Source: Dehalococcoides mccartyi
Lineage (GTDB): Bacteria > Chloroflexota > Dehalococcoidia > Dehalococcoidales > Dehalococcoidaceae
Direction of reading: 5' to 3'
Length of the DNA: 64,000 nucleotides
NCBI RefSeq assembly: GCF_001889305.1
Contig: NZ_CP013074.1
Span: 992,001 to 1,056,000, forward strand
In this document: positions 11,352 to 53,782 of the stretch, in pieces
How the letters are laid out: the number at the start of each line of letters is the position of its first letter
How positions within the stretch are numbered: position 1 is the first letter of the stretch
Notes under the pieces: generated by a model
What the model was told of the DNA's origin: nothing
Database searches by the model: none
Seen by the model: the letters and a program-made list of their open reading frames with translations, nothing else
Position numbers and translations under genes: made by a program

Positions 11352-11428
11352 GGCCCCATGGTGTAGCGGTCTAACATGCCACCCTGTCACGGTGGAGATC
11401 GGGGGTTCGAATCCCCCTGGGGTCGCCA
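11352..11428 (+). tRNA. tRNA-Asp (GTC)
   Basis: Full cloverleaf of 77 nt including encoded CCA: acceptor GGCCCCA/TGGGGTC with one G-T pair, anticodon stem CCACC/GGTGG with loop CTGTCAC (anticodon GTC at 11386-11388), T-arm GGGGG-TTCGAAT-CCCCC, discriminator G. The last 14 nt form the left copy of the prophage attachment repeat, so the tRNA stays intact after integration. Confidence 0.97.
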
Positions 11429-12958
11429 ATTACAGCCTACTTTCTGTTCCTCTACAGCAAAATATTTTATCCGAGCTGTAGTTTCATCAAGTTCTATCCG
11501 GTCTATAAACTCAGGCAGGATAGCCTTTAATTTCTCAGGTGAAGCGGCAAACATATCAATATATTTTGCCCGAATGCCCTCAATCATTGAGTCAGTTATG
11601 TCAGGCAATAACAAATCAATCTCACGCTGGCGGTCTATTTCTGCCAGCTGAAGATATAATTTATTTTTTAAATCAGACCTTTCTTCTATCGGTTGAGTTA
11701 AATTTTCAGGATTCACCCCAGAGGCTATCGCTTCAAAAAATCTTTTTAGCTCAAGTTCTACCTTATTTATTTTAATGAGAAGGTCTTTTCTTTCCCGGTC
11801 ATCTTCCTGCTTATTTTTCTGGTTCTCTCTTGCGAAATATTCAAGCCCAGCCCTTATTCTTTTACTGGTAAAGGCATGGGTTTTCAGATTATCCAAAATA
11901 AATTTTTCTACTGTTTCTTTTTTAACATTTCGGCATGGGGAAATCTTGGCGCCTAATTTTCTTTTGGCACTGCATACATAATAATTGAGGCTGGCATTTG
12001 TATTACCTGTATATAACGCCTGGTGTGCTTTGCACCATAGCAGACCGGTCAATAAATAAGTTCTCTTGCTGTTCTGCGCCCTGCCCTGTATATGAGGCCG
12101 TTTACGTTCCAAAACTGCCTGAACATTATCAAACAGTTCAGGACTGATAATGGCTTCATGGGCATTTTCTTTTCTTATTATATCTTCGGGTTTGGTGTTG
12201 GCCCTTCGCCGGGTCTTCCCATCTACCTGTTTCATAACATTGTAGATTCTTTCACCGAGATATGCCCGGTTACGTAAAAGCGACACAAGGCTGCTGGGGC
12301 TGGTAACAACCCCGGTGGCCTTTATTATTTCCGGCCCGGATGAACCATTGGCACACATTTCAAAGGCTTTTTTAACCCGCGGCGCATAATCCGGGTCTAT
12401 CTCCCAGCCTGTTCTCATTATGGGTTCACCATTTGGTTTAAGCCCTGCAACCTTGCGTACATTCCGATATCCAGTGGCCGCTTTTCCCCCGGTAGAATAC
12501 CCTGCCATAGCTATTTGCTTAAGACCTCTCAAAGTATCTTCTGATACTTGGGAAACATACAGCTCGTCAGCAGCCGCTAAGACAGTTTCCATGAACATAG
12601 CAGAAGCACCCTCAAATTCAGGCTCATGCATGGCTACAAAGCGGATAGAATGGCGTCTGAAGATGCGTGAATAGGCAAGCCTGTGTTCTACGGAGCGGAA
12701 CAAGCGGTTTGACCGCCAGCAGAGAATTATGTCAAATGGTTTCGGATTGGTAGAGGATTTAATAATCTCAATCATGTGCCGGAATGAAGGGCGGTCATCT
12801 GTACGACCGGAGAAACCGGCGTCTGTAAATACTTCTGCTACTTCCCAGCCTTTATCAGCTGCGAATTTACGGCACTCGTCTATCTGGCCGTTGATGGGTA
12901 CTTCTTCTTCAGCCTGCCCTTCAGTACTGACACGGGCATAAATTGCGATTCTAGTCAT
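11387..12958 (-). CDS. int: Large serine recombinase / phage integrase
   Basis: 523 aa as read in the integrated state. N-terminal resolvase domain with the catalytic serine in IYARVSTEGQ, and the motifs ILCWRSNRLFRS and TDAGFSGRTDDRPSF. A recombinase domain follows (GYRNVRKVAGLKPNGEP region), then a zinc-ribbon-like part (LLWCKAHQALYTG ... YYVCSAKRKLG ... CRNVKKE) and a coiled coil (about residues 380-450). The last codons read through attL into the antisense strand of tRNA-Asp; the TGA stop overlaps the anticodon. In the excised circle the reading frame would instead enter the right end of the phage (see 46596-46677). It catalyses integration at attB without host factors in related systems. 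Confidence 0.95.
   Translation of the reverse strand: MTRIAIYARVSTEGQAEEEVPINGQIDECRKFAADKGWEVAEVFTDAGFSGRTDDRPSFRHMIEIIKSSTNPKPFDIILCWRSNRLFRSVEHRLAYSRIFRRHSIRFVAMHEPEFEGASAMFMETVLAAADELYVSQVSEDTLRGLKQIAMAGYSTGGKAATGYRNVRKVAGLKPNGEPIMRTGWEIDPDYAPRVKKAFEMCANGSSGPEIIKATGVVTSPSSLVSLLRNRAYLGERIYNVMKQVDGKTRRRANTKPEDIIRKENAHEAIISPELFDNVQAVLERKRPHIQGRAQNSKRTYLLTGLLWCKAHQALYTGNTNASLNYYVCSAKRKLGAKISPCRNVKKETVEKFILDNLKTHAFTSKRIRAGLEYFARENQKNKQEDDRERKDLLIKINKVELELKRFFEAIASGVNPENLTQPIEERSDLKNKLYLQLAEIDRQREIDLLLPDITDSMIEGIRAKYIDMFAASPEKLKAILPEFIDRIELDETTARIKYFAVEEQKVGCNWRPQGDSNPRSPP
11415..11428 (+). repeat. attL core (14 bp), 3' end of tRNA-Asp
   Basis: CCCTGGGGTCGCCA, identical to 46678-46691. The flanking bases differ on both sides. 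Confidence 0.9.
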
Positions 12959-23940: not shown

Positions 23941-24135
23941 ATGGCATACCGGTATTATAATATAAAGCAGGTAGATTTGAAGGAGCTGACAGAGAAGGAA
24001 CTAGCCAAGATAATAACCAAAATCCAAGCCGTGAAAGAATCCGGCTTCGGAGAGGTTAAAGTCTGCATCAGAAACGGCTCTATCTACCGCATTATCAAAA
24101 CCGAAGAGGAAATGATGGAAACCTCTAAGAACTAA
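23941..24135 (+). CDS. Hypothetical phage protein
   Basis: 64 aa, basic-acidic helical then a beta strand pair (EVKVCIRNGSIYRIIKT). GGGAGA immediately before the ATG. No family recognised. Last gene before a terminator. Confidence 0.5.
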   Translation: MAYRYYNIKQVDLKELTEKELAKIITKIQAVKESGFGEVKVCIRNGSIYRIIKTEEEMMETSKN

Positions 24136-24168
24136 AAACTGAATAATTAGGTCCTTACAGAAGAACTG

Positions 24169-24206
24169 AGCAGGACATTCCCGAAAGGGCGTGTCCTGCT
24201 TTTTTA
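24169..24206 (+). terminator. Rho-independent terminator in early block
   Basis: Stem AGCAGGACA / TGTCCTGCT with an inner CCC-GAAA-GGG hairpin, then a run of T. Confidence 0.8.
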
Positions 24207-24229
24207 TTTGCGCGAGAAAGAGAGGCTAT

Positions 24230-24418
24230 ATGGCAACCGAGTGGCTAACAGAAAAATGCCCCAGGGCTAACTGCAATGGCACGCTGTATTTGGATGACAC
24301 GTTAAGAAGCCATGAGCGGAGATACAAATGTTCACTTTGCAGCCGTGAATGGGGAGAGGCAGAACTCAAGCGGGAACTGGAATCCCTTAAAGACAAACTG
24401 AGAGGCCGCCAGATATGA
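24230..24418 (+). CDS. Small zinc-ribbon phage protein
   Basis: 62 aa from ATG 24230, with GAGAGG upstream. Zinc ribbon CPRANCNGTLYL ... YKCSLCSREWG followed by a charged helix. Stop overlaps the next start (ATGA). Confidence 0.6.
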   Translation: MATEWLTEKCPRANCNGTLYLDDTLRSHERRYKCSLCSREWGEAELKRELESLKDKLRGRQI

Positions 24419-24612
24419 GAGAGAGATATTTACGTTGCACTATCTGGGAGTGCCTGCCGGAGATAATCCAGTTGAAACTGAGGGCATTAGCGTCTGCCGG
24501 CTGGTGTCCGCCTGGGGAACATTCAGCCTTTGCAGGGCTGGAAAGCACCGAGGAGATTGACCGCCTGATGAGACAAACCCCCAGCCATGTTAAGCGGGGT
24601 AAAGCATGGTAA
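24415..24612 (+). CDS. Hypothetical phage protein
   Basis: 65 aa; begins within ATGA overlap. Contains WECLPEIIQLKLRALASAG. No family recognised. Confidence 0.5.
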   Translation: MRERYLRCTIWECLPEIIQLKLRALASAGWCPPGEHSAFAGLESTEEIDRLMRQTPSHVKRGKAW

Positions 24613-25013
24613 GAGAGGCGTATTTCAGACCTGCTCAAATACGTTTCAAAGTGGAAGACGTCATGTGGGTAATCGCTACAGTTTTACCTCAGGAAGAGGG
24701 ATACTGGCCGCCTGAACCCTGTATTGAAATAAGCGCCGGCGGTCAAAGGTCTATATCCCATGTCGCACCATTTGAGGCAGCCTGCCAAGTCCGGGCAGAG
24801 GTATCTGAACGGCTCAGGATGACAAAGGAAGATGGTGAAACCCTATTGTGGGAGTTACAGAAGGGCGGAGTAGACTACTACCCTGTGCTGTGTCCTGCGG
24901 CCCGTAAAGCCCTGTTATATATCAGCTCAGGCTGGAAAAGAAGAAGGCAGACATACGCCGAGTGGAAAGCCCATAGAAAAGCTACTAACAAGGTCTTCGC
25001 AGTAAAAGGATAA
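24606..25013 (+). CDS. Hypothetical phage protein
   Basis: 135 aa overlapping the previous gene by 7 nt. Mixed alpha/beta, with a basic C-terminus (SGWKRRRQTYAEWKAHRKAT) that could bind nucleic acid. Last gene before the structured non-coding region. Function unknown. Confidence 0.55.
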   Translation: MVREAYFRPAQIRFKVEDVMWVIATVLPQEEGYWPPEPCIEISAGGQRSISHVAPFEAACQVRAEVSERLRMTKEDGETLLWELQKGGVDYYPVLCPAARKALLYISSGWKRRRQTYAEWKAHRKATNKVFAVKG

Positions 25014-25040
25014 ATTTGTCCTTTTTTATGTGAAAATCTG

Positions 25041-25069
25041 TTGACACAAACGTATGCAGTTTATATACT
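25041..25069 (+). promoter_or_regulatory. Strong sigma70-type promoter before structured RNA
   Basis: TTGACA (25041-25046), 17-nt spacer, TATACT (25064-25069). Start predicted near 25076. It is one of the best consensus promoters in the window and stands just upstream of a region with no convincing long ORF. Confidence 0.8.
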
Positions 25070-25101
25070 TAAGAAAAGTAAAAGTATACAAAGTTTCCAG
25101 C

Positions 25102-25126
25102 AAGCCGGTGTAACAGCCGGCTTTTT
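25102..25126 (+). terminator. Promoter-proximal terminator or attenuator
   Basis: Stem AAGCCGG / CCGGCTT, 8-nt loop, overlapping a run of five T. It would stop transcription about 50 nt after the start unless overcome. Confidence 0.7.
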
Positions 25127-25410
25127 CTATTGGGTGAGAGATACGGCGGCATACTGGCGCAACGTGGGAAATAAATTCTCTTAATGGCAGCAAAACCCTT
25201 AGGCTACCAGCCCAATAGACTTATCCCCCCAAAGGAGCGTGTCTCCGATGGGAATATATGGGGCAACCTGCCGAGATAAGACCGCAACTTGTCTTGGTTA
25301 TATAGAAGCCCAGGGCGGTATTGCAGGATGAAACCGCCCACATTATCATCCCCAGTTGTAAAGGGAAATTATACAACTGGCCACTCCGGTGATGCGTTGC
25401 CGGAGACTAT

Positions 25411-25487
25411 AACGCAGGGTAGAGCAGCGGTTAGCTCGTCTGGCTCATAACCAGAAGGAGCTGGGACAGAACCGGCACCCGTTACCA
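25411..25487 (+). tRNA. tRNA-Met(CAT)-like element, degenerate or non-canonical
   Basis: D stem GAGC/GCTC (25422-25437), anticodon stem TCTGG/CCAGA with loop CTCATAA (anticodon CAT at 25446-25448), and a 5-bp T stem GCTGG/CCGGC are clear, and an A-CCA end is encoded at 25484-25487. Two oddities: the T loop is GACAGAA, lacking TTC, and the acceptor stem AACG[CAG]GGT/ACCCGTT pairs fully only if three bases bulge out. It may be a tRNA relic, a tRNA mimic within the larger RNA, or a recently acquired phage tRNA. Confidence 0.4.
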
Positions 25488-25515
25488 AAATTCACGCTTT
25501 TGACTGAGGAGAATT

Positions 25516-25860
25516 ATGCATTATCGTAAAATCCGTATTTCAAGGGCAGAGACCAAGGATGAACACAGAGTAATCATGGAACGGTTATTAGGTAGGCCTC
25601 TAAGAAGCGACGAGGTTGTTCATCACATCAACGGTGATAAACAAGATAACCGTCCTGATAATTTACAATTGATGACATATAAACAGCATAATAGCCTGCA
25701 TTTTTCACCCGATGAGCCGCGTATTTGTTCGATTCCCGGGTGTGGAGGAATACATGATGCTCAGGGATATTGTAAAAAACATTGGTTCCGATGGCGAAGG
25801 ACTGGTAGTCCTTATGGATTAAAGGGGCATAGTAGCAGAAATACTGCGTGTATTCCTTAG
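25516..25860 (+). CDS. HNH homing-type endonuclease
   Basis: 114 aa. HNH core EHRVIMERLLGRPLRSDEVV, then HHINGDKQDNRPDNLQLM, followed by a second metal site (CSIPGCGGIHDAQGYCKKHW). This is the free-standing or intron-borne HNH type. TGAGGAGAA precedes the ATG. It directly follows the structured RNA and tRNA-like element, a typical site for such mobile endonucleases. A terminator follows. Confidence 0.85.
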   Translation: MHYRKIRISRAETKDEHRVIMERLLGRPLRSDEVVHHINGDKQDNRPDNLQLMTYKQHNSLHFSPDEPRICSIPGCGGIHDAQGYCKKHWFRWRRTGSPYGLKGHSSRNTACIP

Positions 25861-25887
25861 CCGCCCCCTGCAACCAGCCTTTACCAT

Positions 25888-25910
25888 AGCCCGCCTAACC
25901 AGCGGGCTTT
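25888..25910 (+). terminator. Terminator after HNH gene
   Basis: Stem AGCCCGC/GCGGGCT with a 7-nt loop, then TTATTATTT. It closes the transcript of the structured-RNA/HNH unit. Confidence 0.7.
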
Positions 25911-25974
25911 ATTATTTCCCCTTACAAAATCTTACGTAATCTTACGTTTTTTGACAAAACTAAAGGAGAAGGTT

Positions 25975-26988
25975 TTGAAATTACCAGAGGGCGAAACCAA
26001 GGCATCTTTGTTAGCCAGATATGACCTTGCCAGAGGTGATAAGGATAAAATTATGGAGCTAATGGCTCTCTGTGGGCGCAGTTCAAGAAACTCACTCAGA
26101 GACTTTATGTCCACCTTACGCTGTGAGCCAGACCCTCAACCTTTCAGCATGGGTATAGCTCCAACTTTAAAAGACCATCTGGAAGCCTTCAAAGCCTCAG
26201 ACAAAATCGTATCATACCATCAGCAAGTACCCTTTGAGTGGGTATTTGAGATTAAAACAAATAAACCAGTTGCAATAGTACATACCGCAGATTGGCAATT
26301 GGGAGAGTCCGGGGTAGACTATGAGCAATTTGAAGCAGACCATAATACGTGGCTAATTACGCCCAATCTCCTCGTTAATGTTGGCGGAGATGGGTATCAG
26401 AATATCATTCAGACTTCCAAGATGGGGTCTTCGCATAACCAACAGCCGATAGTAAGCCAGCGGGGTATTTACTACACGGCAATTAAACCTTTGAGCGACG
26501 CGAAAAAGCTTCTTGCCATAGGTACAGGCAACCATAACTACTGGTCTGCCTTACTTTCGGGAGAAGATTGGGATATGGAGTTAGCCCACCGGCTTGATGT
26601 TGCCTATTCCAGACATGCTTCGGTAATCCACGTCAAGGTTGGCAAAATGGACTATCCGATACTCAGGATGCATAAGGGCCGGTTTAACTCCTCGTTTAAT
26701 TTAACCCATTCAGCTAAACAGCATCAGAGAATGGATTTCCCGGATGCCAGAATAGTGGTTGTTGAACATCATCACTGCCCAGCGGTTGAGCAATATTACT
26801 ATAACAATAAATGGTGTTGTGCTATCCGGCCCGGAACTTACGCTGTCAATGATGATTTTGCTCAACAGAATGGTTTTTTCGGTGCAAGGGTAGCAAATCC
26901 AACAGTGGTTTTATTTCCTGACGAAGACAAGATAGTTGGCTTTTTGGATATGTACGCTGCCATTACTTACTTAAAGGCGGTCAGTTAG
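25975..26988 (+). CDS. Calcineurin-like metallophosphoesterase family protein
   Basis: About 337 aa from TTG 25975, chosen because AAGGAG lies 6 nt upstream; a TTG at 25951 has no ribosome site. The N-terminal 70 residues look like an HTH. A metallophosphoesterase core follows: VHTADWQLGE, NVGGDGYQN, GTGNHNYW, RMHKGRFNSS and VVEHHH approximate the five family motifs, but GNHN replaces GNHD/E and DWQ replaces DxH, so activity is uncertain. It sits before the terminase genes. Possible nuclease or phosphatase; substrate unknown. Confidence 0.6.
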   Translation: MKLPEGETKASLLARYDLARGDKDKIMELMALCGRSSRNSLRDFMSTLRCEPDPQPFSMGIAPTLKDHLEAFKASDKIVSYHQQVPFEWVFEIKTNKPVAIVHTADWQLGESGVDYEQFEADHNTWLITPNLLVNVGGDGYQNIIQTSKMGSSHNQQPIVSQRGIYYTAIKPLSDAKKLLAIGTGNHNYWSALLSGEDWDMELAHRLDVAYSRHASVIHVKVGKMDYPILRMHKGRFNSSFNLTHSAKQHQRMDFPDARIVVVEHHHCPAVEQYYYNNKWCCAIRPGTYAVNDDFAQQNGFFGARVANPTVVLFPDEDKIVGFLDMYAAITYLKAVS

Positions 26989-26989
26989 G

Positions 26990-27367
26990 ATGACAGAAGA
27001 ATTTGACCATGTGCAAGATAGCGGGGAACGGCAATCATTTCAGACCGGTGCAGTCCGAGACGCTCAAGACCACAAAGGCCGCTATGACCTGTTACCGCCA
27101 TATGCCATAGAACGCTTGGCAAAACATTTTGAAAACGGCGCAGTCAAATATGCTGCTCGCAACTGGGAAAAGGGTATACCCCTAATGCGCTATATAGATT
27201 CCGGTATGCGTCATATGTACAAACTGATGGATGGGCAGACAGATGAAGACCATGCGGCAGCCGCCATGTGGAATATTGCCTGCTATATCCAAACTGAGAA
27301 ATGGATTAAGGACGGCATACTCCCTAAAGAGCTTGATGACCGCCCTGTACGGATACAATGGACATAA
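26990..27367 (+). CDS. DUF5664-type dATP/dGTP diphosphohydrolase
   Basis: 125 aa. Family features: GAVRDAQDHKGRYDLLPPYA, then FENGAVKYAARNWEKG and DEDHAAAAMWNIACYI with the acidic metal ligands. Relatives include MazZ, which cleaves dATP/dGTP in phages that make 2-aminoadenine DNA. No PurZ-like synthetase was recognised here, so nucleotide-pool control is more likely than a modified genome. It overlaps the SemiSWEET gene by 10 nt. Confidence 0.7.
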   Translation: MTEEFDHVQDSGERQSFQTGAVRDAQDHKGRYDLLPPYAIERLAKHFENGAVKYAARNWEKGIPLMRYIDSGMRHMYKLMDGQTDEDHAAAAMWNIACYIQTEKWIKDGILPKELDDRPVRIQWT

Positions 27368-27618
27368 TAGGCTGGCTTGGCGTCTGTATAGGCGTTGTAG
27401 TGCCACTCCCCCAGCTTATACGCATATTCAAGACGGGTAAGGTCGCCAATATCTCAGTTTTAACCTACGCCTTACTGGTCGTCACTATCACCTGTTATCT
27501 GCTCCATGCCATACAGATAGGCGATGCTGTTTTTACAGTGAGCAATGCCTTTAATCTTTTAACAAACAGCCTGGTGCTGATTATGCTCATAAGAGGCCGA
27601 TATGACAGAGGCAGATAG
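27358..27618 (+). CDS. SemiSWEET / PQ-loop family small transporter
   Basis: 86 aa with three transmembrane helices. The first holds the PQ motif (VVVPLPQLIRIFKTGKVANI), followed by the conserved SVLTYALLVV and the third helix with SNAFNLLTNSLVLI. SemiSWEETs form dimers that move sugars across membranes. The size and pattern match bacterial SemiSWEETs. Presence in a phage is unusual; it lies between a nucleotide hydrolase gene and a small helical protein gene. Confidence 0.7.
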   Translation: MDIIGWLGVCIGVVVPLPQLIRIFKTGKVANISVLTYALLVVTITCYLLHAIQIGDAVFTVSNAFNLLTNSLVLIMLIRGRYDRGR

Positions 27619-27778
27619 AACTGAACTTATACTGGACAGCCAGATAAAACTGCGTGACCGGTTCTGCACTGAGGCCATGCTGGAACTGCAAGACCGCTAT
27701 CCCGGCAGGCCTCTTTGTAACCGCCAGTGGTTTAATACCTATATCAGGCTGTGGAGCGAGTACGCAAGGACTAACTAA
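27602..27778 (+). CDS. Small hypothetical phage protein
   Basis: 58 aa beginning MTEADRTELILDSQIKLRDR, overlapping the SemiSWEET end by 17 nt. Helical. Its stop overlaps the hicB stop of the opposite strand by 4 nt. Confidence 0.55.
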   Translation: MTEADRTELILDSQIKLRDRFCTEAMLELQDRYPGRPLCNRQWFNTYIRLWSEYARTN

Positions 27779-28143
27779 CTACCTACTGCCTCAGCCAGCT
27801 TCTCAGTAACGAACTGGTTCAGGCTCATCTTATCCATAGACGCCTTTTGAGATAGTTTGCGGTGCAGTTCCGGGCCGACCCGGACATTGAACTTACCGCT
27901 GAACTTCTGCTGTGGTTCAGGAATTTTATACCCACGTTCCAGTTGGTCTTCAAGCCACATTCGCTTGTGGATAGCCAAACTCTCAAGAGCTTCTTCTGGA
28001 GTATCTCCATCACCTATGCACCCTGATAACTCTAAAGCTCTGGCTACATAGTAAGTACCGCCGTCATTATCTTCGTCAGGCTCAATGACAACTGTATAAG
28101 GCAATCCCATATAGTAGTCCAAGTTCTTTGATGCTGTTTTCAT
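27775..28143 (-). CDS. hicB: HicB-type antitoxin
   Basis: 122 aa. An N-terminal degraded-RNase-H HicB fold (YTVVIEPDEDNDGGTYYVAR, then GCIGDGDTPEEALESL) and a C-terminal ribbon-helix-helix (RVGPELHRKLSQKASMDKMS) that would bind the operator. Downstream of hicA, 20 nt apart, on the strand opposite to the phage late genes. Confidence 0.85.
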   Translation of the reverse strand: MKTASKNLDYYMGLPYTVVIEPDEDNDGGTYYVARALELSGCIGDGDTPEEALESLAIHKRMWLEDQLERGYKIPEPQQKFSGKFNVRVGPELHRKLSQKASMDKMSLNQFVTEKLAEAVGS

Positions 28144-28163
28144 ATTAACCTCCAGACAGCCTG

Positions 28164-28385
28164 TTATTTCAGGCTGTCTATTTTATTGATTAAATCCTTT
28201 ACATAGCAAGTGCGAATTGGGTTTGTTCTCGGATAAGGCAGGGAGTATTGCCCAATCTGTGCTTTTGCGTGAGACCCACCCATTTTGATTGTTCCGTATT
28301 TATTGACCAGCCATTCAAAATCTTCAAGTGAAACATTCTTAGGGTTCTGGCGTATCTTCTGCTCTCTTTTATCGCTGGTGGTCAT
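28164..28385 (-). CDS. hicA: HicA-like mRNA interferase toxin
   Basis: 73 aa. A dsRBD-like HicA fold with the catalytic His in KMGGSHAKAQIG and a C-terminal helix (CYVKDLINKIDSL). It cuts mRNA in ribosomes in known systems. First gene of the hicAB pair with AAGGAG upstream. Probably keeps the prophage in the population or acts against other phages; the role is inference. Confidence 0.75.
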   Translation of the reverse strand: MTTSDKREQKIRQNPKNVSLEDFEWLVNKYGTIKMGGSHAKAQIGQYSLPYPRTNPIRTCYVKDLINKIDSLK

Positions 28386-28407
28386 TTCATTAACTCCTTA
28401 CATTCAT

Positions 28408-28436
28408 ATAGTACCATATACAGTACCATGTGTCAA
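28408..28436 (-). promoter_or_regulatory. hicAB promoter with direct-repeat operator
   Basis: On the minus strand TTGACA (28431-28436), 17 nt, TACTAT (28408-28413). Two copies of AGTACCA (28410-28416 and 28422-28428, plus strand), 12 bp apart, cover the spacer and the -10: a likely HicB site. Confidence 0.7.
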
Positions 28437-28479
28437 TACTTTAATCACTGATTATCAAAATATTTTTAGCGGGCAAGTT

Positions 28480-28680
28480 ATGAAACAGTCAGTATTTTAC
28501 GCCTCACTCCCCCCTATTCAATCAGCAATCAAAATCGGGCAGGACGGGGCAAGAATCCAGTTAGATATTCCTGAAACTGAACTGGATAAACTGGCCCAAA
28601 TAATCCAGTGGCGGGATAAAGTCTTAAGAATAACCATTGAACCGGTTGAAGGTTACATTTATGGTGCAAAAAGCGAATAA
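28480..28680 (+). CDS. Hypothetical phage protein
   Basis: 66 aa from ATG 28480. Beta-rich start (YASLPPIQSAIKIGQDGARI) resembling small phage proteins preceding terS. It overlaps terS by 20 nt. Unknown role. Confidence 0.55.
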   Translation: MKQSVFYASLPPIQSAIKIGQDGARIQLDIPETELDKLAQIIQWRDKVLRITIEPVEGYIYGAKSE

Positions 28681-29200
28681 AAAGACATCTGACAAAACAG
28701 CAAAAAAGGTTGGCCGTCCCCGAATAAACATAGATTGGGAGATGGCTAAAAGATTATGTGAAATACACTGTACCCAAGAGGAAATAGCCAGCGTACTCAG
28801 GGTGTCTGTTGATACTCTGGACAGAGCAGCTATACGCAAATTCAATCATTCTTTGTCTGAGTTTATGCAAAAGAATTCAGAGATTGGCAAAGCCAGCTTA
28901 CGCCGGATGCAATGGGAAGCATGTATGGGTGTAGCCCCTCAACTGGCAAAGGATAAGAACGGCAATGTAATTCTTGACCGCAAGGGCAAGCCAACAGTCA
29001 TCCCCGGTATTCCTCCAAGCCCTACAATGCAAATCTGGCTTGGTAAACAATATCTCGGACAGGTTGATAAACATGAGATTACGGGGAAGAACGGGCAGGA
29101 ACTTATGAACCAGCCCATTATTCAAGTTATTTCTGTGTCTGCCCAACAGGCTACTCAGCGAATTACGGCAGGCGAAGGGACAGAACCTTGTGCAGATTAA
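28661..29200 (+). CDS. terS: Terminase small subunit candidate
   Basis: 179 aa from ATG 28661. AT-hook-like KKVGRPRINIDWEMAKRLCE and an HTH (TQEEIASVLRVSVDTLDRA) for pac/cos recognition, then a helical oligomerisation part. Overlaps terL by 11 nt, the standard order. Confidence 0.75.
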   Translation: MVQKANKKTSDKTAKKVGRPRINIDWEMAKRLCEIHCTQEEIASVLRVSVDTLDRAAIRKFNHSLSEFMQKNSEIGKASLRRMQWEACMGVAPQLAKDKNGNVILDRKGKPTVIPGIPPSPTMQIWLGKQYLGQVDKHEITGKNGQELMNQPIIQVISVSAQQATQRITAGEGTEPCAD

Positions 29201-30356
29201 AACTACCCGGATTTATGAACAGAATGCCAATGCATGGCTGAAACGCAAGGAAGGTATCCGGCGTGCTTTAAATGAGGGTGGTACGTCCTCAAGCAAGACT
29301 TTCTCCGTATTGCAAACTATCTATCTCATTCTCTCCCACTCAAAACGCCCATTACTGGCAACAATCGTTAGCGAATCATTACCGCATCTGAAACGGGGTT
29401 GCATACGGGATTTCTTTACAATCCTTGATGAGTCTCCCGACAACAATCCCAAATACAATAAGACAGACCACATTTACACCTTTGTCAATGGCTCCAAGCT
29501 GGAATTCATGGGCTTGGATGAGATAGGCAAAGAACGTGGGCCGAGACGGGATATCCTCTACTGCAATGAGCTTAATAACCTCAAGTGGGAAGTGGTGCAA
29601 GGGCTTGATGTCCGAACCAATCTATTCACATTTGCAGACTGGAACCCGACCTCTGAATTCTGGGTGCATGAAAAGTGGATAAACCGGCCTGAAAACATCT
29701 ATATCCACTCAACCTATCTTGACGCTTTGAATGTATTGCCGCCGGAAGTGGTGGCCAATATAGAAAGCAATAAAGACACAGACCCCAACTGGTGGAATGT
29801 GTACGGGTTGGGCCGTATAGGCAAGATTGAAGGTCTGGTATATCCGATGTTTGACCAGGTCAATGAATTACCCCCAGGTGATATGTTCTACGGCTTGGAC
29901 TTTGGTTATTCAAATGACCCTACAGCCCTTGTCCGGTGCGTTATTCAGGGTAAAGACCTTTACTGCCAAGAGCTTATTTACCAGTCAGGTCTTACCAATG
30001 ATGCTATTGCCTATCGCATGAGCGAGCTTGGTATCCGTAAGGGTTATGACGAGATATTCGCAGACGCGGCAGAACCCAAATCCATAGAGGAAATACATCG
30101 GCATGGGTTCAATATCAAGTCATGTCCTAAAGGGGCTGACAGTGTGGAATACGGCTTACAAAGAGTACGCCAACATCGCATCCACTGGACAAAGGACAGC
30201 TTAAACAGCATCAAAGAAATACGAAACTATCGGTATATAGCCGATAAAAACGGAGCCTTAACTTCCAAAACCACTCATCAGTACAGCCACATGATGGACG
30301 CAATGAGGTATGGAGTTATAGGCAAGATAAACAGAATTCCCATTATAGTGGCTTAG
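29190..30356 (+). CDS. terL: Phage terminase large subunit (PBSX/Terminase_3 type)
   Basis: 388 aa, GTG start. The ATPase half shows a Walker A-type loop (EGGTSSSKTFS) and a Walker B region (RRDILYCNEL). The nuclease half shows YGLDFGYSNDPTALV and a further acidic pair (FADAAEPKSIEEI), with TTHQYSHMMDAMRYG at the end. It packages DNA into proheads through the portal. No inteins or frameshift. Confidence 0.92.
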   Translation: MQIKTTRIYEQNANAWLKRKEGIRRALNEGGTSSSKTFSVLQTIYLILSHSKRPLLATIVSESLPHLKRGCIRDFFTILDESPDNNPKYNKTDHIYTFVNGSKLEFMGLDEIGKERGPRRDILYCNELNNLKWEVVQGLDVRTNLFTFADWNPTSEFWVHEKWINRPENIYIHSTYLDALNVLPPEVVANIESNKDTDPNWWNVYGLGRIGKIEGLVYPMFDQVNELPPGDMFYGLDFGYSNDPTALVRCVIQGKDLYCQELIYQSGLTNDAIAYRMSELGIRKGYDEIFADAAEPKSIEEIHRHGFNIKSCPKGADSVEYGLQRVRQHRIHWTKDSLNSIKEIRNYRYIADKNGALTSKTTHQYSHMMDAMRYGVIGKINRIPIIVA

Positions 30357-30367
30357 GGGGAGCGTGA

Positions 30368-32350
30368 ATGTTAGACACTCTAAGAGGCAATATCGCTAGT
30401 TTTATATATCCGAAGCATCAGAAGGCCAAGACTGCCGATGTGGTTGGTTTCCAATTTACCTCTGACCAGCCCATCTATACCAATATGTCAGTTGAAAAGG
30501 GTACACGCGAAGGTTATGCCTGTTCCGTTTACGTCTACCGGAGTGTGAGGACTATCATTCAGGCCGCATCTGCTATCCCTTGGATGGTTGTAGATAAGGA
30601 CGGAGAACGCATACCCGGCCATGAATTTGAAAAGCTAATGGCCAAGCCTAACCCGTATTTTTCCGGGCAGGACTTGATAGAATTCACGATTGCCCACTTA
30701 TGCTTAGTGGGCAATTCCCTTTGGCAGCCTATCTTTGTAAATGGGAAACCGCGAGAATTCTGGGTAACAATGCCGGATAAAGTTAAGCCTGTTCCGGGTG
30801 GTGATTGGATATCACGCTGGGAAGTCAAAGGAGAAGGTGGCAAAACAGAAAATAGACCGCCTGAAACCTTTATCCACTTCATGCAGGTAAACCCCGGCAA
30901 TCCTTATTGGGGTATCGGGCCGCTACAGGCAGCTGCTAGAACTGTAGACACCGATAACGAAGCCCAAGACACTCAGAAGGTCACCATGCAAAACAGGGCA
31001 ATGCCTTCGGGTATTTTATCACCTGATACAGACATACCCCCTGACCAGTTTGAACAGACACAAAAGCAATTCAAGGAGCTTTATAAAACCAAGACTGCTC
31101 GGCGTGAACCCTGGCTCTTAAATGCGGGTATGAAGTGGCAACAGATGAGCTTATCAGCTGTTGAAATGGACTTCATCGCTTCCCGATTACAGAATAAACG
31201 TGATATAGCCGCCGCTTTCGGTATCTCCCCAATATTCTTGGGAGACCTTGAGCAGTCCAGTTATAACAACATGGCTGAGGCCCGTAAGGCTTTATACCAG
31301 GATGTAGTAATCCCCATGCTTGATGATATACAAGCTACCCTCAATATGCGGATAGCTCCCTTGTATGGAGATAACCTGTCAATAGCCTATGACCTTTCAG
31401 GTGTGGCGGCTCTGCGAGGAGACTTCACCGCCAAGGTAACACAAGCCCAGACACTTTTTAACATGGGCGTACCCTTTGAACAGATAAACAGCCGTCTTGA
31501 GCTTGGATTTGAGAAGTTCACAGGCTGGGATAGAAGTTATAAGCCGTTTAATCTGATGGCAGACGGAAAGTCCATGCAGTTACCTGCCGGCAATAAATCA
31601 GAAGTCATGTCTGAGGAACAGAAGACTGCCGCGTGGAAACGGATTGACTCCCGACGTATTGGTTGGTGGAGTGTTGTTGGCGACAAGGTTGAGGAGTTAT
31701 ACAAAGAAAATGGCGACCTATTGGCAAAGGCCAAAGGTAAAACCCCCACTGAATACATAAACGCCGCTAAAAACGCCTTGGAATCAACTACCCCTGAATG
31801 GGAGAAGAAACTCTCCGCCATGTATATGTCCTTGATAGAGGATTTTGGGGGAGAGATAGCCGGTGATTTAGGCATGAGGAAAAAGGCCGATGAGCCTTTT
31901 GACCCCTTTACTGAAGCGGCTATGGCTTGGATAAAAAAGAATGCCGCCAAGACAGTGACTACCATCATGGAAACTGAACTTGAAGCAATAGCCGGGATAA
32001 TAGAGGCTGGTTTTGCTGATGGTTTATCTATCCCCAATATCAGTAAGCAGATTAGGCAGTACTATGATGACAACTCCGCATGGAAAGCCGCACGAGTTGC
32101 CAGAACAGAAGTGGCAAAGGCAGCCGGATATGGGCAACAGGAAGCGGCCAGACAATCCGGTGTGGTAAAAACTCACACTTGGCTGGCTTCCAGAGATGAA
32201 CGTACCAGAGATTCGCACTCTTATATGGATGGCGAAACAGTACCTCTTGGCAAGCCCTTTTCCAATGGTTTGAAGTATCCGGGTGACCCCAGCGGTGGTG
32301 CGGATGAGGTAATTAACTGCCGGTGTACAGAGTTATACGGCGTAGATTAA
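30368..32350 (+). CDS. HK97-type portal protein fused to MuF/gp7-like head morphogenesis domain
   Basis: 660 aa. Residues about 1-400 form an HK97-family portal (MLDTLRGNIASFIYPKH start, KPNPYFSGQDLIEFTI, GNPYWGIGPLQAAA, SISPIFLG-like AAFGISPIFLGDLEQSSYNN). Residues about 430-660 form a Mu F/SPP1 gp7-like domain (ARVARTEVAKAAGYG, then TWLASRDERTRDSHSYMDG and GGADEVINCRCTEL). These are usually two proteins; here no stop separates them, so each of the twelve portal subunits would carry the ejected/minor head domain unless processed. Confidence 0.88.
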   Translation: MLDTLRGNIASFIYPKHQKAKTADVVGFQFTSDQPIYTNMSVEKGTREGYACSVYVYRSVRTIIQAASAIPWMVVDKDGERIPGHEFEKLMAKPNPYFSGQDLIEFTIAHLCLVGNSLWQPIFVNGKPREFWVTMPDKVKPVPGGDWISRWEVKGEGGKTENRPPETFIHFMQVNPGNPYWGIGPLQAAARTVDTDNEAQDTQKVTMQNRAMPSGILSPDTDIPPDQFEQTQKQFKELYKTKTARREPWLLNAGMKWQQMSLSAVEMDFIASRLQNKRDIAAAFGISPIFLGDLEQSSYNNMAEARKALYQDVVIPMLDDIQATLNMRIAPLYGDNLSIAYDLSGVAALRGDFTAKVTQAQTLFNMGVPFEQINSRLELGFEKFTGWDRSYKPFNLMADGKSMQLPAGNKSEVMSEEQKTAAWKRIDSRRIGWWSVVGDKVEELYKENGDLLAKAKGKTPTEYINAAKNALESTTPEWEKKLSAMYMSLIEDFGGEIAGDLGMRKKADEPFDPFTEAAMAWIKKNAAKTVTTIMETELEAIAGIIEAGFADGLSIPNISKQIRQYYDDNSAWKAARVARTEVAKAAGYGQQEAARQSGVVKTHTWLASRDERTRDSHSYMDGETVPLGKPFSNGLKYPGDPSGGADEVINCRCTELYGVD

Positions 32351-53152: not shown

Positions 53153-53257
53153 TATCCGCTTGAATCAATTTTGACATACCATTTACACACCTCCTCCATA
53201 ATATCTCCACACACACCTTGTATAGTTAATGCATAACAACCTGAGGAGGTTACAGAA

Positions 53258-53782
53258 ATGAAAAAGAGTCTAAAAATCTTAATCATTGTGGGGGTAGTAG
53301 CTGCCCTATCCGCCCTGTTCATGTTTTCCACTGTCTCGGCTGCTGGTCAAAACCGCAGTTTTGCCGGGGAGTGTGACGGAACAGTGCTTACTCTGCTTAA
53401 TATGACACAGGCAGAGCTACAGGCGGAACGCCAAAGTGGTAAAACTCTGGCAGCAATTGCCGCCGAACAGGGCATCAGTACCGATGCTCTGGTAAATGCC
53501 CTTATGGAACAGCACAGAGCCGCAGTGCAGGCTATGGTAAATGCCGGACAGATTACCCAGGAGCAGGGTACTTACCGCCTGCAGATAATGGAGCAAAACG
53601 TTATCCGCATGGTAAACCAAACCGGCGGCGCTAACGGAGCAGGCAGCGGAAACGGTGTCTGTGATGGAAGTGGTCCTATCAGTGGTGCTGGTAATGGCAC
53701 AGGCGTTGGCGCTGGCAGCAGCAACGGCATCTGTGACGGAAGCGGTATCGGCAGCGGTGGAGGACAAAGAGGCGGCAGATAA
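53258..53782 (+). CDS. Secreted protein with Gly-rich repeat tail
   Basis: 174 aa. Signal peptide (residues 1-29, cut after VSAAG). A helical middle (LNMTQAELQAERQSGKTLAA, then EQGISTDALVNALMEQH) resembles DUF2680-type envelope stress domains. The tail (about 125-174) is Gly/Ser/Asn-rich with NGVCDGSG and NGICDGSG. GAGGAGG precedes the ATG. A histidine kinase/response regulator pair follows; whether they sense it is unknown. Confidence 0.7.
   Translation: MKKSLKILIIVGVVAALSALFMFSTVSAAGQNRSFAGECDGTVLTLLNMTQAELQAERQSGKTLAAIAAEQGISTDALVNALMEQHRAAVQAMVNAGQITQEQGTYRLQIMEQNVIRMVNQTGGANGAGSGNGVCDGSGPISGAGNGTGVGAGSSNGICDGSGIGSGGGQRGGR

Follow-up and report, generated by a model that had tools for sequence, protein, structure and literature searches.

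The window, a 64,000-nucleotide stretch that is part of the 1.52-Mb genome of Dehalococcoides mccartyi, contains a prophage that starts at about 11.4 kb, after a tRNA-Asp gene (11352–11428). Its genes are arranged in the order large serine integrase, XRE-type repressor (assigned by eye), replication proteins, the RNA region described here, and late genes, the last encoding in order a phosphoesterase, a dGTPase-like protein, the small and large terminase subunits, portal, capsid and tail proteins. The RNA region is at the boundary between the replication genes and the packaging and structural genes. The tRNA-Asp gene and the adjoining integrase gene (window 11352–12958) are the probable attachment site of the prophage, and a hicB/hicA-like gene pair (toxin-antitoxin, by eye) lies on the minus strand at 27775–28385, within the late operon, with the dGTPase-like gene on one side and terminase on the other. 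A viral contig collection contains an identical copy of the RNA region (L013) and six distinct carriers (L012, L016, L017, L021, L023 and L057); these six together with the window, and without the identical copy, make up the seven distinct members compared below. The features of the locus are listed here in window coordinates.

25004–25027 (+), terminator-like hairpin and T-run closing the upstream (replication/early) genes, AAAAGGA..TCCTTTT, read from the sequence
25041–25069 (+), promoter, TTGACA-17-TATACT
25076–25101 (+), probable transcript start, placed 6–7 nt past the -10, and A-rich 5' leader
25102–25130 (+), M0, promoter-proximal hairpin with a U-run, intrinsic-terminator-like, from the terminator scan in the window and L057
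25126–25219 (+), M1, optional module closed by a 9-bp long-range pair, only in the window and L012
25228–25252 (+), M2, small optional hairpin, invariant in four members and missing in L017
25260–25339 (+), conserved core of ~80 nt, in all seven members
25261–25264/25308–25311, 25273–25280/25288–25295 and 25313–25319/25333–25339 (+), core stems P1, P2 and P4
25267–25271 (+), 5' strand of the pseudoknot, CCTGC, pairing with 25323–25327
25323–25327 (+), 3' strand of the pseudoknot, GCAGG, in the P4 loop
25352–25380 (+), M5, optional 9-bp hairpin, only in the window and L012
25384–25405 (+), M6, hairpin directly before the tRNA slot, CTCCGG/CCGGAG
25413–25458 (+), 5' portion of a tRNA-iMet (CAT) gene, matching the intact L021 tRNA-Met at 43/46 positions
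25459–25488 (+), substitute, degenerate T-arm and acceptor end, with T-loop GACAGAA and poor acceptor pairing
25516–25860 (+), HNH endonuclease ORF of 114 aa inserted in the tRNA gene (Pfam HNH_3, 1.4e-13; PHROG HNH)
25861–25876 (+), displaced true tRNA 3' end (CCGCCCCCTGCAACCA), 15/16 identical to the L021 tRNA 3' end
25888–25916 (+), T_end, intrinsic-terminator-like hairpin before the first late gene, from the scan; the same in L012, L021 and L017, and in L016 by eye
25951–32347 (+), first late genes (phosphoesterase, dGTPase-like, small and large terminase, portal), with the hicB/hicA-like pair inserted on the minus strand

The near-consensus promoter named in an earlier, sequence-only reading of this DNA is present, with 11/12 matches, and ranks first among 25 promoter-like sites in the 22–32 kb interval. 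Four close relatives have TTGACA-17-TACAAT, also with 11/12 matches; the 17-nt spacing is kept, the -10 differs, and the A-rich leader is likewise kept in the close relatives. We agree that there is no convincing gene here: none is credible between 25014 and 25515, and a 53-aa ORF at 25289–25450 was rejected as a hidden protein frame because it is frameshifted in L012 by a 1-nt indel. The hairpin at 25004–25027 has two-sided changes with pairing kept in the relatives (AAAACCA/TGGTTTT in L012 and L017, ATCCGA/TCGGAT in L016), and its G-C pairs are too few for the terminator-scan rule.

At least six perfect inverted repeats had been claimed for the region and these are present, but their number is not unusual, with seven of at least 6 bp compared to 6.1 in shuffles. 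The long-range pair described as 8 bp (25127–25134/25211–25218) is real and is 9 bp long (25126–25134 with 25211–25219), and the 9-bp stem 25352–25360/25372–25380 and the 7-bp stems are real as well. Two 9-bp repeats are rare, with a shuffle mean of 0.11 and two reached in 3/200 shuffles. The region folds more stably than its shuffles, with z of -3.0 and -4.1 at the two lengths used. Across the rest of this DNA, 250-nt windows have a mean z of -0.76 (sd 1.37), and ten reach a lower z than the best one in the RNA region, so that folding energy alone is unconvincing. A closing helix of ~25092 with 25410, seen in the minimum-energy fold, was dropped because it is not kept in L012. The strongest folding signals in the window are at 53251–53500 and 24001–24250 (z of -6.4 and -5.7 respectively), the latter including a terminator-like AGGACATTCCCGAAAGGGCGTGTCCT hairpin.

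The relatives differ widely in how much of the region they carry. L012 is 91% identical to the window; L021, L016 and L017 have the promoter, the first hairpin and the core in common with it and lack modules; and L023 and L057 are distant relatives, recovered with a covariance model and a pattern. A short-core model applied to 393 genomes of the class gave no further copy, the sole match being the window's own genome. Searches of the species-genome collection gave nothing for an exact 21-nt piece or for the phosphoesterase, plasmids gave no match, and among phage records only the tRNA-Met-like sequence was matched. Three sets of matches were judged to be chance: one to contig 28 of G043 (93% over 29 nt, to 25183–25211), in an apparently coding region; weak model matches in five Dehalococcoidales genomes (L032–L037, 18–21 bits), which rested mostly on low-complexity or terminator-like hairpins; and all but one (L057) of seven new pattern matches (L055–L062), mostly in coding sequence.

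Compensatory change across these relatives, the outcome expected of a structured RNA, is found in P4 and the pseudoknot of the core. In the seven-sequence alignment 91.4% of cells are paired, compared to 82.6 in shuffles, and 11 cells have two-sided changes compared to 3.1 (0/500 shuffles), with two-sided changes in six pairs; the covariation score is 0.326 compared to 0.155 (0/500), and the signal is abolished when the pairing partners are slid. With seven related sequences these covariation counts are good, not large. P4 is paired in 49/49 cells and has two-sided changes in 4/7 of its pairs, and P2 is weaker, with 89% of cells paired. The 5-bp pseudoknot, whose strands were placed by hand as the automatic alignment was off by one base, reads CCUGC/GCAGG in four members, CCUGU/GCAGG in L012 and CUCGG/CCGAG in L023 and L057; because the last two have identical letters here, the change may have been one event. 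Loop bases CGCAAC, GUUA and GAAAC are invariant in the core. These patterns argue that the region is a genuine structured non-coding RNA element, and together with the outcome of the Rfam searches they support the proposal of a promoter-driven structured RNA in a Chloroflexota prophage.

Outside of the core the region is much more variable. The M0 hairpin is in all seven members, although in L023 its stem is interrupted and its U-run weak. In L012 the M1 closing pair has a T-A to T-G change that keeps pairing, and M1 is missing from L016, L017 and L021; M6 of L021 is CGCCGG/CCGGCG, a compensatory T-A to G-C change. An extra tail module is carried by L016, L017 and L021 (TTACACAGAACCGGCAGACGTG..GAGGAAGCTGTGGTGAAAAGAG, near-invariant; L021:7618–7690, L016:5594–5655, L017:9635–9700). 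Its stem changes on both sides (CCATG/CATGG as against CCAAG/CTTGG), and it is also an open frame (..YTEPADVSEHLEEAVVKRAW..) that has no clear start. The alignment thus indicates that most of the 340 nt preceding the tRNA slot is optional hairpin modules, and of the description of the region as a large ornate RNA, the structure stands but the size does not, the conserved element being only ~80 nt.

The same reading had placed the RNA with GOLLD and ROOL, and Rfam gives this no support. No Rfam model matches any part of the region except tRNA, and models for GOLLD, ROOL, HEARO and group I or II introns have no match either to the window at the gathering score or to 24900–25600 at E values up to 10, so the element is absent from Rfam. 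These searches indicate that it is a new RNA family, without an Rfam family, and our literature search found no paper on it. The main rival to the interpretation that we prefer below is nonetheless of this general kind: a stand-alone, trans-acting structured phage RNA gene ended by T_end, GOLLD- or ROOL-like in being abundant and possibly self-assembling, with the tRNA cut from its 3' end. ROOL itself assembles into a cage made of RNA only. We consider this rival unlikely, if still a serious candidate. Like GOLLD and ROOL, the RNA is non-coding, structured, in a prophage and linked to tRNA genes; it has its own strong promoter and a terminator-like end, a stable fold over 340 nt, and a tRNA attached as for GOLLD linkers and tRNA islands (PMC12286853), and an unrelated-looking structured, promoter-driven region of ~480 nt is at the same place in another phage, L044. 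However, GOLLD and ROOL are about 600–800 nt long, and many GOLLD members exceed 800 nt and have a conserved 3' region (PMC12286853). The RNA here is shorter, reaching about 340 nt up to the tRNA slot; it consists of a small core among modules that come and go, and it occupies the position of a late-operon leader. In addition, it has no end of its own in L057 and L023, where the core runs straight into the first genes.

The L044 region (L044:3379–3890) is non-coding and very stable (z -4.35), lies between an apparent homologue of the window ORF at 24606–25013 and a phosphoesterase gene, and is matched by neither covariance model. Its 3' ~60 nt recurs in three Dehalococcoidia genomes (L065:1470–1560, L066:1470–1560 and L067:1216–1272), with the first two copies directly 3' of a strong promoter-like site, and looks like a tiny stand-alone RNA with a terminator end (CTAACTCATCTACCA..AAGGAGTCCTTAAGTCGCC..GGCGGCTTTTG).

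The tRNA-like fold noticed at the 3' end of the region is real but was misread, in that it comprises the first 46 nt, from the 5' end, of a tRNA-iMet gene. The sequence CCGCCCCCTGCAACCA stands immediately 3' of the HNH stop codon, 400 nt downstream of the 5' part, and when paired with CGCAGGG it retains the C1:A72 mismatch of initiator tRNAs. Because matching 5' and 3' parts flank the HNH ORF, we infer that the tRNA gene was split by an HNH-bearing insertion; the ORF is not at this site in non-identical relatives. Segments 25413–25458 and 25861–25876 correspond to most of an initiator-type tRNA-Met (CAT) gene of the kind found in phages, from which they differ in the HNH insertion in the T-arm and in the loss or replacement of the T-stem 5' strand and T-loop. 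The split tRNA is probably not functional, because its true halves lack the T-stem 5' strand and loop and the substitute GACAGAA lacks the usual bases. The tRNA-like region scores 28.9 bits with the Rfam tRNA model, for which the cut-off is 29, and is not called by ARAGORN, which calls the intact tRNAs of L021 and L012. The substitute T-arm has ACAGAACCGGCA in common with the tail module of L021, L016 and L017, and may have arisen by recombination with that module. A group I intron, a reading prompted by the HNH gene, was rejected given the Rfam result; the insertion consists of the HNH ORF and ~57 nt, which is below the length of a group I core.

Directly after M6, the slot is occupied by tRNA-Thr(TGT) in L012 and by the intact tRNA-Met(CAT) in L021, and it is empty in L016, L017, L023 and L057. 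With 3/7 members having the slot filled, and inverted repeats at their chance number, the whole region could be read as a tRNA-gene leader decorated by chance hairpins and having no function of its own. We regard this as highly improbable, since the four members with the core and no tRNA contradict it and the two-sided changes in the core exceed those in every shuffle.

The RNA is ahead of packaging genes in all seven phages, despite differing terminase and first genes; in L023 the core is upstream of phosphoesterase and terminase genes, and in L057, the smallest version, 22 nt separate the end of the core from the start of terS, and the large terminase encoded downstream belongs to another family. 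A packaging or replication RNA resembling the phi29 pRNA, or a transcribed element beside a cos or pac site, would account for the fixed vicinity of packaging genes in those contigs that reach that far. However, most members have one to several genes between the core and terminase, the covarying pseudoknot favours an RNA over a DNA signal, and nothing ties the RNA directly to packaging. In addition, pRNA-type motors belong to another kind of phage. We consider this explanation very unlikely.

Five of the versions have terminator-like hairpins between the promoter and the first late gene. In L021 and L017 the next ribosome-binding site is about 12–15 nt past T_end, leaving no room for another promoter, and the late genes of these phages should therefore be reached only via read-through. 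The place of the RNA at the start of the late operon, and the terminators before the genes, make a cis-acting leader the first candidate. The explanation that we favour, at somewhat less than even confidence, is that the region is a late-operon leader whose structured RNA would serve as an antiterminator, acting in cis on RNA polymerase. On phage induction RNA polymerase would start at the leader promoter, and the core, once folded and together with some of the extra hairpins, would act in cis on the polymerase. As with HK022 put and Tn916 canT, transcription would then pass T_end and the terminators beyond it and continue into the late operon of 20 kb. Where the element does not act, transcription would stop at M0 or T_end. 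The tRNA slot would be a passenger site, with any tRNA located there co-transcribed and cut out.

Covariation in the core and pseudoknot and conservation of the promoter, even though its -10 differs, are consistent with this leader model, and three observations count against it. M0 is upstream of the core, beyond the reach of a downstream antiterminator, and would have to be leaky or obey a different rule; no T_end follows closely on the core in L057 or L023; and a cis element by itself leaves the tRNA slot and the large optional modules unexplained.

A related possibility is an attenuator or protein-binding leader, in which the core would sense a metabolite or a phage protein such as terminase or another late product, and would thereby choose between stopping and reading on or control translation of the first gene. 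A leader position and a compact pseudoknot with invariant loop bases, as in ligand-binding RNAs, fit with this, as does the spacing of 17–22 nt between the core and a downstream start codon in L023 and L057. Elsewhere, however, in five of the seven members, a tRNA, the HNH gene or another module keeps the core far from the next gene; the first gene differs among phages; and no alternative antiterminator pairing with T_end was noticed in an unsystematic look. On balance we think that a sensing role of this type is improbable, if less so than one in packaging.

Comparison with known elements is consistent with antitermination in cis, although the likeness to both put and canT is one of layout, not of sequence. 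The HK022 putRNA is ~70 nt, and putR is located ~270 nt after its start site (PMC9378689). As with put, there is here a compact structured RNA (~70 and ~80 nt respectively) near a strong promoter in a phage operon leader, with terminators downstream; put is built of two stem-loops plus a triplex and acts in early operons, whereas the core here is predicted to form a hairpin-loop pseudoknot and precedes a late operon. Antiterminators of the put type let polymerase pass terminators in cis and depend on the beta' zinc-binding domain. Tn916 canT is a 341–452-nt structured RNA that promotes processive antitermination in cis (PMC11658703). Like the RNA here, it has a complex structure, belongs to a mobile element and precedes terminators and an operon. 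It differs in that its element is a conjugative one, whereas the RNA here is in a prophage and is a putative antiterminator.

The RNA family is new and, if the leader model is right, would work like known leader antiterminators. Our literature search found nothing on late gene control in phages of Dehalococcoides-type Chloroflexota, and we raise as a tentative, somewhat doubtful possibility that these Chloroflexota phages have a new class of phage RNA antiterminator for late (packaging) transcription that operates with no Q-like protein and has a pseudoknotted core of ~80 nt, exchangeable hairpin modules and a tRNA cargo slot. If the RNA does act as an antiterminator, it would add late genes, in phages of the organohalide-respiring, Dehalococcoides-type Chloroflexota, to the early phage operons and the conjugative element in which RNA-only antitermination has its precedents. 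Exchangeable hairpin modules and a slot for different tRNAs make a clean case within one phage RNA gene, and offer a tractable route to understanding why GOLLD, ROOL and similar phage RNAs so often adjoin tRNAs.
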